From: a virus
IMG/VR virus record: IMGVR_UViG_3300031974_004714
Coordinates: 1 to 22,051 of that record
Length of the DNA: 22,051 nt
Reading direction: 5' to 3' (one strand)
Positions 7,119-17,539 of this stretch are shown here, piece by piece. The position numbers were made by a program, and so were the translations under genes. The notes under the pieces are model-generated. The model was not told where the DNA came from. It saw only the letters and a program-made list of their open reading frames with translations, and did not search any database. The first letter of the stretch is position 1; each line of letters starts with the position of its first letter.

Positions 7119-8390
7119 TTATTCTGTTAGTATTGGGTTTCCACCTATAATTGGGCTTCCTTCTTCAATTTTTTCTTCTAATTGTTTTTCATCTGCAATA
7201 TCTGTATCTTGTGAAGTAACTATTTCTTCTTCATCTGCTTGTTCAAAATCATATAATGGGTTTTTCTGAACAACTCCTAATGTTATATCACCATAGTTAA
7301 ATTCAAGTAATCCTTCAAATACACCTAATATACTTTGTTGATAAGGTAATACTACAGTATTTAAGAATAACCTATATGCAGTTTCAATTTCTTCAGCATT
7401 ATTACCTAAACCAACATTTGATTTAATACCTAATAACATTGGTGAAGTAATTCTATGTGCTGTTAATATCTTTTGAGATACAGTATCATTTAGTACTGTA
7501 TAATAATCATCAGCTCCATTTTGTGGAATAGGCTGAATATCTGGTTTTAATGTTGGATCAGGAACATCCATGTACATCATTTGACCTGCATTTGAACTAC
7601 CTTCATATTGTAGTCTTAACATATTTTCAATTGCAGCTCTTTCTTCATCATTAGCATTTGTAAATGTTGTAATTGCTAAAGATGGTGCTAATCCATTCTT
7701 AATGTTTGATACGTGGAAATTATCTACTTCTTGATCTAAATCAATTACTCTAGTACCACCAATATAATCAGGTAATGGATAATATTCTTGTCCTGGTCTA
7801 TATGGTTGATGGTATAATAATTGTTTAGGTTCTTCTCCTCGTTTTAATGGATTAAATGGAGGTAAATGTGGGATATGTTTTGTTGATGTAATATCATAAT
7901 CCCATACTGGTTTCCAATCTGTGTTTATATAATATCCTGGAATAATGTTTCTATGATCTTTCTCCATTGCACGAACATAAGAAAAATCAACATGATATAC
8001 TTCTGCTATTTTAGTTCTGTCTTTAGAATAAATAATTTCTAAAGCAAAACCACCAAATAATTTATAATCTAAAGCAACTTTGTTGTATATATCATTCCAT
8101 GATTCACCTTCTCTATTTGCATGAGCTAATATATCCTCATCTTCTGTAATTAAACCATCACCTGATACTGCTTGTACAATTGCATTAACACATGAGGCAT
8201 GAATTGAAGAATGATTATATAAATCAATTAAATAATCTGGATACTGATTGTCAGCTCCAAATTTGATATATTTTTTATGTTCGGTACTTTTTTTACCGTC
8301 ATATTTGTGCATTGAAACTTTTTCCACACCTTTCTTAAGTGCAAATTCATCTCGTTTAATGCTCTTAAATTGAAATTTTGTACCTTCCAT
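7119..8390 (-). CDS. Phage portal protein
   Basis: A 423-residue protein that should form the dodecameric ring at the capsid vertex through which DNA passes and to which the tail joins. Supporting features are an early FGADNQYPDYLIDLYNHS segment and the helical SIHASCVNAIVQAV stretch. The DYKLFGGFALEIIY segment follows, then a middle region ending in DNFHVSNIKNGLAPS. The C-terminal SPMLLGIKSNVGLGNNAEE and ETAYRLFLNTVVLPYQQSIL correspond to the wing/clip-to-stem region of HK97-type portals. The last ~45 residues are acidic and probably disordered. Its length fits the family. Its ATG overlaps the upstream stop by one base. Confidence 0.88.
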   Translation of the reverse strand: MEGTKFQFKSIKRDEFALKKGVEKVSMHKYDGKKSTEHKKYIKFGADNQYPDYLIDLYNHSSIHASCVNAIVQAVSGDGLITEDEDILAHANREGESWNDIYNKVALDYKLFGGFALEIIYSKDRTKIAEVYHVDFSYVRAMEKDHRNIIPGYYINTDWKPVWDYDITSTKHIPHLPPFNPLKRGEEPKQLLYHQPYRPGQEYYPLPDYIGGTRVIDLDQEVDNFHVSNIKNGLAPSLAITTFTNANDEERAAIENMLRLQYEGSSNAGQMMYMDVPDPTLKPDIQPIPQNGADDYYTVLNDTVSQKILTAHRITSPMLLGIKSNVGLGNNAEEIETAYRLFLNTVVLPYQQSILGVFEGLLEFNYGDITLGVVQKNPLYDFEQADEEEIVTSQDTDIADEKQLEEKIEEGSPIIGGNPILTE

Positions 8391-9540: not shown

Positions 9541-10491
9541 TTACGCTATATCGTTAGATACGAAATATTCTGGGTGACCGATTTGAGTACCTAGTTTATT
9601 TCTTAATCTATACTTAATGCTATCAGAGTTAATATCATACCATAATTGGTAGTTACTTGTATCTGATAATAGATCAGTTCCAACAAACATATCGCTTGCA
9701 GGGCCTAATACTACTCTCTCAGATCCTCTAAGTCCCCAACCACCTACGATTGCTACGTTAGGATATCCTGGTAGTGGTACTTGATAGTATCCTCCTCGTC
9801 TTTCAACAGTTGTTGGGTCGAAGTGGAATAAGTTCTGAGTTGTTAATCCATTGATGATTCTTTGGAATACTGGAATACCACAGAAGAAAGTTAAATCTGC
9901 AGCGTCAGCTACGTTTGAATCAATTACTGATAACATATCAGTTAAAGCGTCATATGCAGTTGAAGCAGTGATCGCAGATGCACCTTGACCAGTTGGTACG
10001 TTTACACCTGTAGTAGATCCTGAGATTAATGTCTTAAATCCATCAGCTTCAGCAGTTACAGTAGATCCAGCAAATGTAGATCCAGATACTGCGTTCCAGA
10101 TGAAATCATCATTGTTTTGTTGAGCTTTTTCAACTAGCTCTTTAGTTAAATCATTCAATAAGCTGAATGTTTCTTCGTAAGAACCTTCTGGTAAACTAGA
10201 AATACCTAAGTACTTCTGAGTTAACAATTGTAGGTTCCATGCGTCATAAGCTGTTCTCTTAGTAACAGTAATGTTTCTTTGTGAGAATACCGCAGATCCA
10301 GAAGCAGTAGTAACTGCGTCCCCGCCTTGGAAGTAAGGGTCAACAGAAATTAAGTTCAATGGTTCTTGGTACTTGATTCCCTCTTGAATTGAAACATACT
10401 CAGCTGTGTTACCTTTGTAGACTGTGTCTAAAAGCACTTTACCAGCAACTTCATTGTTAAAGTCGTTAAGTGCGCTAACATTTAATGCCAT
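9541..10491 (-). CDS. Major capsid protein
   Basis: A 316-residue protein of HK97-fold type, expected to build the head shell. The N-terminal arm (ALNVSALNDFNNEVAGKVLL) leads to an E-loop-like stretch (GGDAVTTASGSAVFSQRNIT). Then comes a spine-helix-like region (YEETFSLLNDLTKELVEKAQ). The A-domain follows, with ADLTFFCGIPVFQRIINGL and a C-terminal beta/loop section (GYPNVAIVGGWGLRGSERVV, then FVGTDLLSD). It lies directly after the scaffold-like gene (16-base gap) and before the tail tube gene. Its upstream leader is AT-rich (AATTAAATTTTAGAAACT before ATG), with no Shine-Dalgarno. Confidence 0.9.
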   Translation of the reverse strand: MALNVSALNDFNNEVAGKVLLDTVYKGNTAEYVSIQEGIKYQEPLNLISVDPYFQGGDAVTTASGSAVFSQRNITVTKRTAYDAWNLQLLTQKYLGISSLPEGSYEETFSLLNDLTKELVEKAQQNNDDFIWNAVSGSTFAGSTVTAEADGFKTLISGSTTGVNVPTGQGASAITASTAYDALTDMLSVIDSNVADAADLTFFCGIPVFQRIINGLTTQNLFHFDPTTVERRGGYYQVPLPGYPNVAIVGGWGLRGSERVVLGPASDMFVGTDLLSDTSNYQLWYDINSDSIKYRLRNKLGTQIGHPEYFVSNDIA

Positions 10492-10507: not shown

Positions 10508-11179
10508 TTATTTGTTTTTACTTAATTTCGCTAACATCTTATTGTATCTGCTAGCATTCTTGAATTCAAAATCCTCACTTGAGAATTTTACGTTTGGAAG
10601 TGTTTTGTCTTCAGCTGGTTCATTAGAGAAAGAAGCCATTTTTTCTTCGATTTCTTTCATTTTGTCTTCGTGTTTAGCGAATTTTTTTTCTAATTCCTCA
10701 ACTTTAGCCTCAACTACTTCACCAATTACTTTGATTACCTCTTCCATAGAGATATCTTCTCGTTTTTCTTCTTCTAATTCTTCTTCTTTCGCTTCTTCCT
10801 CTACTTTTAAATCTTCTTCTTCTTTTTCAAAAGCACCTTCTTCAGCACCTTCACCTTTTTCGATGATTTTTGCTGGTGTTTCTTCAGCTAGGTCAGCTTC
10901 GCCTTCTCCAGCTTGGTCAGGATACTTTAATCCAACGATTTTAGAATCTTTATCTAAGATGAATTGAATACCAGAGTCAGAAACATGCTCTCCCTCAGGT
11001 GCAGGTACGAAATTACCTTCTTCATCTTTGATATAAAGGATTTGTCCAATTTCGAATTTGCCCTCTTGTTGGTTAGAAACGATGCTTCCATCCTCTAATT
11101 GAGCTTTATCGAATTTTTCCACGACTTCAGTTAAATTAAAATGTTGCTTCACGAGCTCTTTTAATTCATTTCTTGTCAT
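10508..11179 (-). CDS. Capsid scaffolding protein
   Basis: A 223-residue highly acidic protein placed immediately before the major capsid gene, the usual scaffold position. Residues 1-90 form a small globular part (helix MTRNELKELVKQHFNLTE, then strands GKFEIGQILYIKDEEGNF). Residues about 91-140 are almost all Glu, Ala and Lys. Residues 141-182 are a coiled coil (VEAKVEELEKKFAKHEDKM). The last 20 residues are basic (ASRYNKMLAKLSKNK), like scaffold tails that touch the capsid protein. It would guide head assembly and then leave or be cut by the protease. The first part may have a separate role. Confidence 0.8.
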   Translation of the reverse strand: MTRNELKELVKQHFNLTEVVEKFDKAQLEDGSIVSNQQEGKFEIGQILYIKDEEGNFVPAPEGEHVSDSGIQFILDKDSKIVGLKYPDQAGEGEADLAEETPAKIIEKGEGAEEGAFEKEEEDLKVEEEAKEEELEEEKREDISMEEVIKVIGEVVEAKVEELEKKFAKHEDKMKEIEEKMASFSNEPAEDKTLPNVKFSSEDFEFKNASRYNKMLAKLSKNK

Positions 11180-11302
11180 AATGAAAAATTTTAATTAATT
11201 AGTGATTAATTGTTTCCTATAAATAGATACAAAAATATAAATATTTTGAAGAATGGGTTGCTTCTTGGTTGTTTTCTTATTATGTTACATACGTATAATA
11301 AA
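11180..11302. promoter_or_regulatory. Divergent intergenic region between head operon and plus-strand cassette
   Basis: Only AT-rich sequence separates the scaffold start (minus) from the likely methyltransferase start (plus). On the minus strand, TATTTTTG (11237-11230) matches the Bacteroidetes -7 box TAnnTTTG about 50 bases before the scaffold ATG, but I see no TTG at the expected -33. On the plus strand, TATAAATA (11219-11226) equals the T4 late promoter consensus, about 80 bases before the methyltransferase. Both are single short matches in AT-rich DNA. Confidence 0.35.
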
Positions 11303-11923
11303 ATGAGCAATATTATGACAAACATTATTCAATTAGGAGCCAATAAAGGCGAAGACCATGTCCTTGAATTTATTAAGGATTATGATTATGATAAGTTATT
11401 ACTTGTTGAAGCACATCCAACTTGTATGAGGTTATTAACTAAAAATTATATGCGTTTTAATAACGTATTTTACGAATGTGCTGCAATAGTAGGTGACAAT
11501 GTAGATACTGTAGATTTATATTATAAACCAAATACTAACCTAGAAGTATCATCTATATTTCACAACCATAATCCCCTTAGATCTCAAACACACGTTACTA
11601 TCCCAGCAATGACATTTGATCATCTATGTAATTTACACGATTTTAACGATGTAACTCACTTATTCATAGACATTGAAAAAGCAGATGAGATAGTAATTAA
11701 TTCAATAAATTTAAACAAGTATCCATTAGAATTAATTGTATGGGAAGATGCACATACTAGAATGAATGCATTGCACCCTACATTATTAGATAAACTTAGA
11801 CAAAATGGGTTTGCAATAATGAGTGATGGGCAAAACAAAATTGCATATAAAGGTGATCCACCAAGAATACATTTTAATAGACAAAGGTTACATTTAGAAT
11901 ATACTGGAAAAAATAAATTATAA
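11303..11923 (+). CDS. FkbM-family methyltransferase
   Basis: A SAM-dependent methyltransferase of 206 residues. The SAM-binding start NIIQLGANKGEDH, the acidic strand end KLLLVEAHP and the later THLFIDIEKADEIVINSI correspond to FkbM motifs (G-x-N-x-G, VEAxP, KIDVEGxE). Here the last motif is altered to DIEKAD. The frame opens further upstream at a TTG (11210), but those 31 residues are hydrophobic and unlike the family, so the ATG at 11303 (MSNIMTNII) or 11315 is preferred. FkbM enzymes methylate sugar or other hydroxyl groups. In a phage the target might be host surface glycan or the particle, which the sequence does not show. It is the first gene of a plus-strand cassette, one base before the endonuclease ATG. 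Confidence 0.82.
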   Translation: MSNIMTNIIQLGANKGEDHVLEFIKDYDYDKLLLVEAHPTCMRLLTKNYMRFNNVFYECAAIVGDNVDTVDLYYKPNTNLEVSSIFHNHNPLRSQTHVTIPAMTFDHLCNLHDFNDVTHLFIDIEKADEIVINSINLNKYPLELIVWEDAHTRMNALHPTLLDKLRQNGFAIMSDGQNKIAYKGDPPRIHFNRQRLHLEYTGKNKL

Positions 11924-11924
11924 A

Positions 11925-12458
11925 ATGAGAACAAGTAAAATAGTAAATACAAAAGATTCAATAACTAAATTTTGTACCGAATGTGAGGTTGATTTAACCC
12001 CAGGTACTAACTGTTATGCCTCACAATATAAACGCCACATTTACATCTGTAAATCATGTAGAGCAGAACGAGCAAAACAAGAACATATTAAATATTATTC
12101 TCTACCACATTGGAGAGATAAGAAAAAAGAATATGTTAAAGACTATCGTAGTGAAGAAAAACCAGGAGTATATTTTATTAGATATAGAACTGAAATAATT
12201 TATATTGGTGAAAGTAAAAAACCAGTAGCTCGTAGATGTGTTCACTTTAGTAAATACAAAAACGAGAATCATTGGCAACAACCAATTCAATTAGATTTAC
12301 TTAATGGTAAATTAGATAGACAACATTTATCATTTGAAGTTGTAGTTAATGAGGATGATGATAAAAAACGTAGAGAAATAGAAGCGGATTTTATTAGAAT
12401 TCATCAACCTATTTATAATACAAATAAAAAATCTCCACGAAAAGACTTGGATACCTAA
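11925..12458 (+). CDS. GIY-YIG endonuclease with N-terminal zinc finger
   Basis: A 177-residue protein. Its N-terminal part has two CxxC pairs (C17/C20 in KFCTECE and C42/C45 in CKSC), a zinc finger of the kind attached to phage homing endonucleases. From about residue 80 the nuclease domain reads GVYFIRYRTEIIYIGESKKP, the GIY and YIG elements about ten residues apart. The usual Arg (VARRCVHF), the metal-binding Glu (REIEADFI) and the final Asn (IYNTNK) follow. This is the expected catalytic set, so it looks active. It probably nicks or cuts DNA as a free-standing homing-type enzyme and could have moved the cassette. It directly follows the methyltransferase stop. Confidence 0.87.
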   Translation: MRTSKIVNTKDSITKFCTECEVDLTPGTNCYASQYKRHIYICKSCRAERAKQEHIKYYSLPHWRDKKKEYVKDYRSEEKPGVYFIRYRTEIIYIGESKKPVARRCVHFSKYKNENHWQQPIQLDLLNGKLDRQHLSFEVVVNEDDDKKRREIEADFIRIHQPIYNTNKKSPRKDLDT

Positions 12459-12477
12459 AATAGGGGTCGTATATTTA
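12447..12477 (+). promoter_or_regulatory. Possible Bacteroidetes-type promoter for the secreted-protein gene
   Basis: TTG at 12447-12449, 20 bases of spacer, then TATATTTA at 12470-12477. This fits the Bacteroidetes sigma-ABfr pattern TTG-N17-20-TAnnTTTG with one mismatch in the last G. It starts inside the end of the endonuclease gene and lies about 20 bases before the next ATG. It could give that gene separate expression. Confidence 0.4.
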
Positions 12478-12496
12478 GATATATAAAATGTTACAA

Positions 12497-12871
12497 ATGA
12501 GAAAATTAGTTTATTTATTTATTTTAGTTTCAACAATTGGTTATTCCCAAACTTATACTGGTTTAGCTGGTTATTTAAATGTTAATAATAATGTTTGGAC
12601 ATTAACGTTCCAAAACAACGAGTATTATTATCTTACAGATCCTGCTACTTTAGCATTTGATAATGTAAATGATGTTCAAGTATTCTATTCAGATTTACAA
12701 ATTGCTTTAGATACCAATAATAATGAAATTATAGGTAAAGGATATAAGTTAGTATCAACTAAAAAGAATATTACCCTTTATAATGAATACGGCCAGTATA
12801 TGGTTATTGTAAAGAAATATTTTAAAAAGGGATTAGAAGAAATAAATAAGTCTATCGCGTATATGGAATAA
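12497..12871 (+). CDS. Small secreted protein with Bacteroidetes-type signal peptide
   Basis: A 124-residue protein beginning MRKLVYLFILVSTIGYSQTY, a clean Sec signal peptide with probable cleavage near GYS/Q, the form common in flavobacteria. No lipobox Cys is present. The mature part is about 105 residues, Asn/Tyr-rich, with beta patterns (GYLNVNNNVWTLTFQNNEYY, then KNITLYNEYGQYMVIVKKYF) and a helical Lys/Glu C-terminus. An ATG three codons earlier (12488) is possible but lengthens the n-region unusually. It is the last gene of the plus-strand cassette. A phage-encoded exported protein made in the host may alter the cell surface, for example for superinfection exclusion; that is inference only. 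Confidence 0.7.
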   Translation: MRKLVYLFILVSTIGYSQTYTGLAGYLNVNNNVWTLTFQNNEYYYLTDPATLAFDNVNDVQVFYSDLQIALDTNNNEIIGKGYKLVSTKKNITLYNEYGQYMVIVKKYFKKGLEEINKSIAYME

Positions 12872-12999: not shown

Positions 13000-13146
13000 T
13001 TAGCTATTTCTATTTTCCCATTGCTGCAAGCAAACAACAAACCTTTGTTTACCATCAGGGAATTCTTTTCTCATTACATTATCAGTAATGCATCTATGTA
13101 AAAATTGTTCTTGATTTTCGTCTTTGTTAGGCGTTGGTATCGGCAT
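13000..13146 (-). CDS. 48-residue conserved phage protein paired with the head protease
   Basis: A very short gene, ATG at 13146 to TAA at 13000, starting 20 bases inside the end of the protease gene in another frame. The product begins MPIPTPNKDENQEQF and continues FLHRCITDNVMRKEFPD and GKQRFVVCLQQW. I recognise this as the short PxPxxxExxxxFxxRCMxDxxMxxEFPDxxQRxAVCxxQW segment seen in many phages beside or fused to head maturation proteins. The two conserved Cys (19 and 39) and the final Trp are present. Its function is unknown. The overlap implies translational coupling to the protease. Confidence 0.8.
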   Translation of the reverse strand: MPIPTPNKDENQEQFLHRCITDNVMRKEFPDGKQRFVVCLQQWENRNS

Positions 13147-15271
13147 TTTCGTATTGTTTACTTGCTTCTAAAATGGTTTTGTCTTTAAATATACCTTCAA
13201 CACTAAAGCCTTTTACTTTACCTGTTTTGATATATTCATCCCATATATTTTTGTTATTTACTTTGTATACTCCAAACCAACTACCTTTAGGTAATTCATA
13301 CCCATAAGTATTTGATTTGTCTTTTTGAGGGTCTCCTACTAACCAAGTTTCTACTAAACTAATATCAGCAACTGTTCTATCTGGATCATGTTCAATGTTA
13401 ATAGAATCAATTAATTTGTTTTGCATTAACTTGTATGATAATCTTTTAATTCCATCCTCATCGAAAAATACGTAATATTTCTCGCCCTCGCCATCTATTC
13501 TAGGAATTAATTTATCAGGAATCATTAATGGACCTGCTAATTCCATTTTCTCATCAATTGCACTAAATAAAAATTGTCCTTCAGGTACGCCTGCTTCAAC
13601 TTCTGCTTGTGTTCTTGATTTAGGATTTACTTGACCACCTTGTAGTGCTCTAGGTCCACCAATAATATCTAATAAATCAGTGTTTGTTTTTTGACTGCGT
13701 TTTTGATCTTCAATATCCTTTTGTTTAGTATAGAATTTTTGTACCCATCTGTGTCTACAATTATAAGATCCTTTATAACTGAATATATCGTAAGTACTAA
13801 ATTCTTCATTAGCACCTTGTAAAGACATATTGTTAATATCTTCTAATCTATATAATAGGTTTAAATCTAATACTTGTCTACAGAATTGTCTGTTTTTACT
13901 GTCTTTAGGTCCTTCATACTTGTATAATACTTTAAATAACGAAGTATCTTGTAATGAACCTTCATCAGGATTTGAATATGCTTTAGTTACCGCAAATTCA
14001 TGGTATAAATTGTTGTTAAATTCCTCTTCACTTAATTCTACCCATCCATCAGCAGACATATCATCTTCTGTTTTACCCACGTTATTTAACGCTTTTAACA
14101 ATTGACCTTTTTTATTGTCATCTAAATCTTCAAAATAATTTTGTGACATTTCTTCTTCAATTGTTTTAAGTAATTTATCTGTTGCTTCTGAATGTGTACT
14201 ACAAGGCATATAAACAATTTCTCCACCAATAGTGTGTTCATGTGTACCTGTACATCCTATTTTTTTAGCTAATTCTAATGCTTGTTCTGGATTAGCAAAT
14301 ACAGGTATTCCATCTATCATTTTTTGATCTGCAAATGAATTAGCTTGTTTTGTTGATTTAGGATGTTTAGCAGGTAATAAATCATAATCAGCAGTGTATT
14401 TTTTATTTTGTGGTCTACCATTTTTTACTAAATATAAAAATGCATTTACTCTAGCTTGTGCCCACTGTTCTGCGGATTTTACTTTAGGTGAATGTGATGT
14501 TTGAAATGCACCTACACCTCTTTGATATACTGCTTTTAATTTAGGGAGTGAAACACCATACCCTAATTTGTCTTTATAGCGTTCGTTAAACTCATCAGAT
14601 TTTCTTTGGAGAGATTCTTCGACGCGTTTTGGGACTTTAACATTTCCTCTCTCACCAGCTGCTGCGCCTCTGGGGTTAACCCTGCTGCCAGATCTACCTT
14701 CGCCGGGTGTTGTTGAACGAGGTGCTTTCTTAGAAGGTCTAATTCCTCCTCTAGGACCAATTTCTGCGAATTCATTTACTTGTTTTTTTTTGATTTGTTT
14801 AATTTCACTAGCGATGATTTCTTCATTACTAGCATCTAATACGCCTGCTTGTCTTAATTTCTTTTCTGCCCAAGGTAATGCTGGAGCACCACCCCATAAC
14901 AAATAAGAAATATATCCACATGCATTGTAATCTTTTCTTCTAACTGCTAATTCATAATTATCTTTTTGACGTAATAAAAATGAACGCATTCTTTTAACTG
15001 TATCTAATGATATAGGTTTACCTTGAGCTAATTGTTGTGCTCTTACTTTACCTACTTGTGTACCACATTTATTACCTAATGCTTCGTTTCTTTTGATACC
15101 TTGTTCTGCTGCTTTTCTAGCTGCTTGAGGATAATCAGTGTATGTTTCTTGGAATTTAGCTTTAGAGAAGAATTGAAAATCTAATTCAATTGCTGGGTTT
15201 TCTACCAATGCAACTGCATCAATACCTTCAAATTTACTATCTTCGTCTATTGTTAGTTTTACTATTTTCAT
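13127..15271 (-). CDS. XkdF-type head maturation protease with several inserted domains
   Basis: A 714-residue mosaic protein. The N-terminus (EGIDAVALVENPAIELDF, about 15-32) and C-terminus (about 565-697) together resemble an XkdF-like phage serine protease. The C-terminal half holds AGPLMIPDKLIPR, the catalytic His candidate H628 (NIEHDPD), LVETWLV and the Ser candidate S690 (VKGFSVEGIF). Between them, in order, lie several segments. The first is a CGTQVGKVRAQQLAQGKPIS domain (about 47-142). A low-complexity basic linker follows (163-215), then a DUF5824-like segment (about 225-300). Next is IDGIPVF with CTGTHEH and MPCSTH (about 319-362). Last is a MuF-like head-morphogenesis segment (about 423-515) with RQFCRQVL, YDIFSYKG and NCRHRW. 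It probably processes scaffold and capsid and may also do minor-head tasks. It lies between tape measure and the 48-residue gene. The protease assignment is firm; the inner domain names are from memory. Confidence 0.82.
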   Translation of the reverse strand: MKIVKLTIDEDSKFEGIDAVALVENPAIELDFQFFSKAKFQETYTDYPQAARKAAEQGIKRNEALGNKCGTQVGKVRAQQLAQGKPISLDTVKRMRSFLLRQKDNYELAVRRKDYNACGYISYLLWGGAPALPWAEKKLRQAGVLDASNEEIIASEIKQIKKKQVNEFAEIGPRGGIRPSKKAPRSTTPGEGRSGSRVNPRGAAAGERGNVKVPKRVEESLQRKSDEFNERYKDKLGYGVSLPKLKAVYQRGVGAFQTSHSPKVKSAEQWAQARVNAFLYLVKNGRPQNKKYTADYDLLPAKHPKSTKQANSFADQKMIDGIPVFANPEQALELAKKIGCTGTHEHTIGGEIVYMPCSTHSEATDKLLKTIEEEMSQNYFEDLDDNKKGQLLKALNNVGKTEDDMSADGWVELSEEEFNNNLYHEFAVTKAYSNPDEGSLQDTSLFKVLYKYEGPKDSKNRQFCRQVLDLNLLYRLEDINNMSLQGANEEFSTYDIFSYKGSYNCRHRWVQKFYTKQKDIEDQKRSQKTNTDLLDIIGGPRALQGGQVNPKSRTQAEVEAGVPEGQFLFSAIDEKMELAGPLMIPDKLIPRIDGEGEKYYVFFDEDGIKRLSYKLMQNKLIDSINIEHDPDRTVADISLVETWLVGDPQKDKSNTYGYELPKGSWFGVYKVNNKNIWDEYIKTGKVKGFSVEGIFKDKTILEASKQYENADTNA

Positions 15272-17137: not shown

Positions 17138-17539
17138 TTAACTAAATAGGGCAACTCTTGCCTTCATCTTGTTCCTAAAATTTAAGTGCCCACCTAATCT
17201 AGCTACATCTAATGTTGTATAATGTTTTTTTAATGCTGATAATGATTTAACTGGTATTGATAAACCGTCTACATTATGCATTTCAAATTCAGGTAATTTT
17301 TTGTTAAATACGTCAATATAATGATTATTAAATGATGTTGACCATCCCCATCCATTAAACCTATCTAAGCGCCTTACCCAATTATCTAACCCATCATACG
17401 CATTTTCAGGTACATCAACTATTACATCTATATCTTTACCTGAGAATGAATCAATAATACCATGTAAGTATAAAGCTAAACTACCACATATAACATAATC
17501 GTTACAGTAATAATCTAGATATTTAATTACTTCTCTCAT
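17138..17539 (-). CDS. Small nucleotidyltransferase-fold protein
   Basis: A 133-residue protein with the Pol beta-type nucleotidyltransferase signature. It has G19-S20 in YVICGSLALYLHG, D36 and D38 in GKDIDVIVD, and a third acidic candidate, D76, in HYIDVFNK. These are the residues that bind the metals and nucleotide. There is no extra substrate domain, so it resembles minimal antitoxin/AbiEii-like or tRNA-modifying transferases in size. Its substrate is unknown. It lies inside the tail operon, with 7 bases to the preceding tail gene and 14 to the tape measure start, so it is expressed with structural genes. A catalytically dead structural use cannot be excluded. Confidence 0.7.
   Translation of the reverse strand: MREVIKYLDYYCNDYVICGSLALYLHGIIDSFSGKDIDVIVDVPENAYDGLDNWVRRLDRFNGWGWSTSFNNHYIDVFNKKLPEFEMHNVDGLSIPVKSLSALKKHYTTLDVARLGGHLNFRNKMKARVALFS

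Follow-up and report, generated by a model that had tools for sequence, protein, structure and literature searches.

Portal and maturation protease are commonly regarded as distinct single-purpose head proteins. A phage gene in which a protease is interrupted by several further modules raises the question of what kind of head protein it encodes and how these modules came to lie within it. Such a gene is located at positions 13127-15271, on the minus strand, of the stretch of viral DNA analysed here (the window, 22,051 nucleotides). It forms a single unbroken frame of 714 aa and, judged by Pfam and PHROG matches and by its homologues, encodes a head maturation protease of XkdF type that is split by nested modules. 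From the N- to the C-terminus the protein comprises an N-terminal element (Nm), a module with the motif CGTxVGKxRAxQL (CGT), DUF5824, DUF3721, a domain that is the C-terminal portal domain in relatives (portal-tail domain, PTD) and the protease core, with about 535 aa of small modules separating Nm from the core. The initial annotation of this DNA, which gave no strand, had placed the gene and the residues H628 and S690 correctly, and the four recognisable modules it saw between the N-terminal piece and the core are borne out by Pfam and PHROG.

A direct scan of viral contigs with the whole window protein gave no match, and alignments of single segments were needed: in IMG/VR, a PTD-segment alignment yielded 32 loci and a protease-core alignment 80 loci, from 511 confirmed relatives. 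The closest relative of the window protein (66% overall identity, 79% in the core) is encoded by locus L042, an independent contig showing the window's order minus DUF5824, with a four-cysteine stretch in place of the window's linker and DUF5824. As the window is metagenomic, the long frame might represent an assembly chimera, or else a decayed protease with neutral insertions, which we regard as extremely improbable: the matching order in L042 argues against an assembly artefact, like architectures are present in the further independent contigs L046/L047, L058, L103 and L110-L112, and the catalytic residues and the PTD invariants are retained.

Protease core and N-terminal hairpin

The core (residues 572-698; 13178-13558, minus strand) matches Peptidase_S78_2/XkdF (PF14550) over residues 573-695 with 44.5 bits (cut-off 24), and the catalytic residues H628 (13388-13390) and S690 (13202-13204) are invariant among 31 aligned relatives. 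The N-terminal element Nm (residues 1-35, GIDAVALVENPAIE; 15167-15271, minus strand) is a β-hairpin, with its strands visible in AlphaFold2 models, and its profile is found, at E ≤ 0.01, at the start of 76 of the 78 complete ORFs that contain S78. The distance between Nm and core is bimodal, either 8-31 aa (compact proteases) or 199-535 aa (split proteases) with none between 31 and 199, and the window protein has the longest distance among its relatives.

In an AlphaFold2 model of a compact homologue (L081, residues 1-172, 27 sequences, pLDDT 84) Nm forms two strands (2-7 and 16-23) and residues 29-40 are disordered. The best solved match of this compact homologue model, which was compared in place of the window core folded alone, is T4 gp21 (5jbl_B; Z 8.3, next match 3.1; rmsd 2.5; 111 aligned); Foldseek of the same model against the PDB gave no significant match, and gp21 surfaced only upon realignment. 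As the match covers only residues 26-172, the hairpin lies outside the gp21-like part, and together with the disordered stretch preceding the core this indicates the linker between hairpin and core as the insertion point. The initial annotation had joined the N-terminal piece and the core into one XkdF-type protease. The XkdF match is indeed present towards the C-terminus and the N-terminal element is a trait of the same family, whereas the idea of the N-terminal piece being half of the catalytic domain does not hold. From its sequence, the window protein is predicted to mature the procapsid as an XkdF-type, T4 gp21-like protease.

Inserted modules and linkers

In the AlphaFold2 model of the full chain (pLDDT 77.8) the protein appears as a row of confident beads, i.e. 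the hairpin, a helical CGT module (49-170), a helical DUF5824 module (215-298), a small α/β DUF3721 module (328-356), a PTD of mixed structure and the core (570-694), connected by disordered stretches at residues 30-40, 172-207, 308-315 and 530-564. The pTM of 0.37 means that the placement of the beads relative to one another and the docking of the hairpin to the core are not readable from this model. Alignments mixing full-length sequences and fragments misplaced Nm, and other alignments served for folding. The inner region is not a single continuous known domain, as would be expected from the nested segments initially described, and a Pfam search placed XkdF, DUF5824 and DUF3721 all above their cut-offs.

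The helical CGT module (residues 44-146; 14834-15142, minus strand) matches phrog_2859 over residues 44-142, was modelled with a pLDDT of about 92 and could be aligned across 26 copies found in portals, in proteases and as standalone ORFs. DUF5824, likewise helical in the AlphaFold2 model (residues 211-308; 14348-14641, minus strand), is recognised as PF19141 at residues 238-298 with 34.3 bits (cut-off 25). The segment initially described by its CTGTHEH and MPC motifs is real and corresponds to DUF3721 (PF12518; residues 319-362; 14186-14317, minus strand), with a marginal Pfam score of 27.1 bits against a cut-off of 27 at residues 325-361 and an invariant C-G-H-H...MPC pattern in 16 aligned modules, making it a candidate metal-binding module.

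Two linkers deserve attention. The first (residues 163-215; 14627-14785, minus strand) had been described as basic and Gly/Pro/Ser-rich, which its composition supports (12 K/R, 4 D/E and 19 G/P/S among 53 residues), and as a natural cleavage place. It is not a generic spacer: its matches occur only in DUF5824-bearing ORFs (9/9), showing that it belongs to the DUF5824 cassette. Residues 172-207 are predicted to be disordered, which plausibly leaves the linker accessible to cleavage. The second, between PTD and core (residues 530-564; 13580-13684, minus strand), has pLDDT values below 50 at 530-557 and 559-564.

Comparison of the CGT, PTD, compact protease, DUF5824 and DUF3721 profiles with PDB sequences gave nothing convincing, and DUF5824 and DUF3721 are not mentioned in the literature searched. 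The top structural matches of DUF5824 (14348-14641; residues 200-308 of the model) are chains of sigma-factor region 2 (best Z 6.4, rmsd 2.8, 71 aligned), which we treat as a lead and not as a claim, as in such a small helical bundle the Z-score may reflect a common arrangement alone. A chance alignment had hinted at CGT and DUF5824 being related to each other, for which hhalign gave no support.

A portal domain within the protease

The PTD (residues 382-518; 13718-14128, minus strand) is the module that relatives carry on the portal. Window residues 401-519 match the portal family phrog_33693 in its C-terminal part (389-513 of 560), a family matched by all 28 aligned PTDs. The portal of the window itself (7119-8390, minus strand; PF04860, phrog_11226) is short, with 423 aa, and lacks the PTD. 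The 43 records containing a protease and a complete portal fall into two groups: in 31 the portal bears the PTD and the protease is always compact, and in the other 12 the protease bears it, is always split and is accompanied by a short portal; in none of the 43 is it present on both. In the split-protease records from the record search, the short portals span 376-421 aa as open frames. Once records are thinned to 80% identity in the core, 15 cases with the PTD on the portal and 8 with the PTD in the protease are left. Fisher tests on PTD location yield very small values but assume independence, which is untrue of related phages, and we therefore put the weight on the absence of double or mixed cases. 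In some loci with split protease and short portal (L045, L050, L062) no PTD was detected within the 26-30 kb records, indicating either that the PTD is dispensable in some members or that its gene lies outside these records.

The Nonlabens phages P12024S and P12024L share Nm, core, portal, scaffold and PTD with the window (34% identity in the core, tblastn) and illustrate the alternative arrangement. In P12024S a compact protease (Nm motif 15-27, core 48-173) forms one protein with the scaffold, and the portal of 560 aa ends in the PTD, whereas in the window the scaffold has a gene of its own and the split protease contains the PTD. The same head parts thus appear, from sequence comparison, to be swapped between two different head proteins, portal and protease.

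The segment around NCRHRW, which lies in the PTD, had been called MuF-like. It is real and conserved, but its identity as MuF is not supported: none of the 28 PTDs matches PF04233 even with E values of 10 allowed, and an hhalign comparison with eight aligned genuine MuF proteins gave a probability of 0.2%. Twelve records of the window's family, among them the complete genomes of P12024S and P12024L, lack PF04233, while both control phages were positive, and for this reason the PTD may stand in for MuF. Loci such as L011 have the order portal-CGT-PTD, and the halovirus HRTV-28 has portal-CGT-MuF; by this analogy the PTD may fill the role of MuF although no homology between them is detected. The 1139-aa portal-MuF protein of HRTV-28 carries CGT, as does the window protein, but between portal and a genuine PF04233 MuF domain and with no Nm detected, whereas the window protein has the PTD and no MuF match. 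The suggestion that protease and minor-head functions are combined in one polypeptide holds in the sense that residues 382-518 are the portal-tail domain of the relatives.

Module shuffling and the proposed insertion slot

The inserted modules vary in kind, order and position across the relatives. L046 shares the order Nm-CGT-DUF3721-PTD-core with L042, L063 and L067 have Nm-PTD-core, and L111 has Nm-PTD-DUF3721-DUF5824-CGT-core (Nm being found via profile); in other relatives the modules follow the core, as in L083 (Nm-core-CGT-DUF3721-DUF5824) and L081 (Nm-core-CGT). Close copies of modules are found on distant cores: between the window and L083, DUF5824 is 77% but the core only 44% identical, between the window and L048 the values are 60% and 54%, and between L046 and L081 CGT is 85% but the core 53% identical. 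In a quick tree of the cores (131 columns, many forks open) the split state requires three changes and is strongly clustered, with which a single origin remains compatible.

The split of the protease, the shuffling of its modules and the mutually exclusive location of the PTD are observed directly. They lead us to propose, with a probability of about 0.55, that the hairpin-core linker of the XkdF-type protease is an insertion slot for interchangeable head modules, including a PTD that moved from the portal. The split proteases of L045, L050 and L062, with no PTD detected in their records, count against it, as does the low pTM of the full-chain model. According to this model the flexible linker would take up small head modules, the PTD would have moved into the protease in the lineage of the window while the portal became short, and a part once contributed by the portal would now reach the interior of the procapsid by way of the protease. 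Prohead proteases have the capsid protein as a substrate, in many cases also cut scaffold and internal proteins, and can process themselves (PMC7411985). By analogy, the window protein would be built into the procapsid together with the scaffold, turn active inside it and mature the head. Cleavage of its own chain during maturation is plausible, for which the disordered linkers 172-207 and 530-564 would be the likely places; PTD and the other modules would then stay in the head or be ejected with the DNA, and the protease would leave or be degraded.

Two loci, L079 and L085, are exceptions to the order with Nm first and represent a natural gene fission (L079:489-2966, L085:3994-6471). Nm and PTD form a separate gene of 228-229 aa, followed by an ORF of 143 aa (L079) or 121 aa (L085), the latter fitting the sole DUF5856 match of the family scan, and by a third gene combining DUF3721, a HAD-like DxDDT segment, CGT and core in one ORF. 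Hairpin and PTD thus need not share a chain with the core. This bears on whether the modules might be permanent structural or targeting parts for procapsid anchoring or for binding DNA or scaffold, which are never cut, the protein acting as a whole. The SPN3US protease, whose non-catalytic C-terminal part is required for prohead entry (PMC7411985), provides a precedent, and the first linker as a conserved piece of the DUF5824 cassette, not a random spacer, would fit. The extensive predicted disorder between the beads, a module make-up that varies without effect on core conservation and the fission in L079 and L085 speak against it, and we hold permanent parts to be possible, if on the unlikely side. 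A further-reaching form of our proposal, according to which the hairpin-core loop has evolved into a cargo bay, its modules including the PTD entering the procapsid within the protease, which then releases them by cleavage, with the hairpin acting even in trans as part of a two-piece enzyme in phages of the L079/L085 type, seems doubtful to us.

Multidomain head proteins are established from polyvalent proteins with 2-15 domains and from fusions of MuF or portal to effector domains (PMC5512222). These resemble the window protein in being multidomain, encoded in head clusters and shuffled in architecture, and they suggest that the modules might be cargo which rides on any head protein, is released by the protease and acts in the newly infected cell. 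Modules that change fast on constant carriers, the HAD-like segment of L079 and L085 and BFVD relatives including proteins named Zeta toxin and ChaB would agree with such a role. Yet no window module matches a known effector enzyme, and PTD and CGT vary too little, and are bound too closely to portal or protease, for arms-race toxins. We consider a cargo role of this kind unlikely. The window protein also differs from the proteins of PMC5512222 in that CGT, DUF5824, DUF3721 and PTD are not among the effector enzymes named there and in that the modules are nested within their carrier, the maturation protease.

One domain moves between portal and protease in a mutually exclusive manner, and phages of Bacteroidota, Vibrio, Roseobacter and haloarchaea have one module set in common, distributed over portals, proteases and fusions of protease and capsid protein. 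This points to a common need in the procapsid interior that any head protein can serve. Shared modules are also found in proteins of HGTV-1, HRTV-28 and CRP-821 and in Salinibacter and Vibrio phages, and CGT alone in PaBG. The prohead protease gp11 of halovirus HGTV-1 (888 aa) has CGT and DUF3721 fused to the protease as in the window, but C-terminal to it and with no Nm detected. In gp39 of Roseobacter phage CRP-821 (974 aa) CGT and DUF5824 precede an S78 protease as in the window; here the protease is of PF04586 type and fused to the capsid protein, and Nm, DUF3721 and PTD are missing. Domain mosaicism, too, is established for phage proteins, the main cases being tail, lysis and replication proteins (PMC10684548). 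As there, domains are shuffled between phage proteins, but portal, protease and MuF are absent from the main text of that study, whereas portal and protease are what the window case involves. In the literature that could be searched, neither a maturation protease interrupted by nested modules nor the alternation of a domain between portal and protease was found to be described. While multidomain head proteins and mosaicism as such are known, these two features appear to be new. Displacements of the protease gene were reportedly described by Liu and Mushegian in 2004.

The module set offers a way into several domains whose function is unknown, and it accounts for some misleading annotations. 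The 974-aa product of CRP-821 (L003:3974-6898), named major capsid protein, consists of CGT, DUF5824, S78 protease and capsid protein. K459_0024 of a Vibrio phage (L007:3962-4735) is annotated as DNA methyltransferase yet carries the CGT module, and phrog_1530, under the same annotation, matches the window protease core; both are probably maturation proteases under a misleading name. Two further small cysteine-containing motifs recur, RCIPxLxxEGYDxDQAAAICY and CWxGYxxIGxK...PNCVP, at L045:5200-6420 and in 12 other S78 ORFs, in L094, L103, L106, L027 and others, and also in other phages.

The window probably stems from a phage of Bacteroidota, since its relatives in genome collections, all compact, are mostly found in Bacteroidota MAGs, with one Sphingobacterium isolate contig. 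Its head cluster includes a scaffold-like gene (223 aa; 10508-11179, minus strand), recognised by a scaffold profile and corresponding to the part fused to the protease in P12024S, and a probable major capsid protein (9541-10491, minus strand), which has phrog_11320 (unknown) as its sole match and is named by its position in the cluster and a gene order like that of the relatives. Between protease and scaffold, a plus-strand group (11210-12871) within the minus-strand cluster encodes an FkbM methyltransferase (PF05050, 4e-10), a GIY-YIG-like endonuclease (PF01541, 4e-4, just below the cut-off) and a small ORF, and may represent a mobile cassette. At the left end of the window lies a gene for a 2OG-Fe(II) oxygenase (PF13640; 1586-2806, minus strand), and an ORF with weak similarity to nucleotidyltransferases (DUF6036, below cut-off; 17138-17539, minus strand) adjoins the tape-measure gene.
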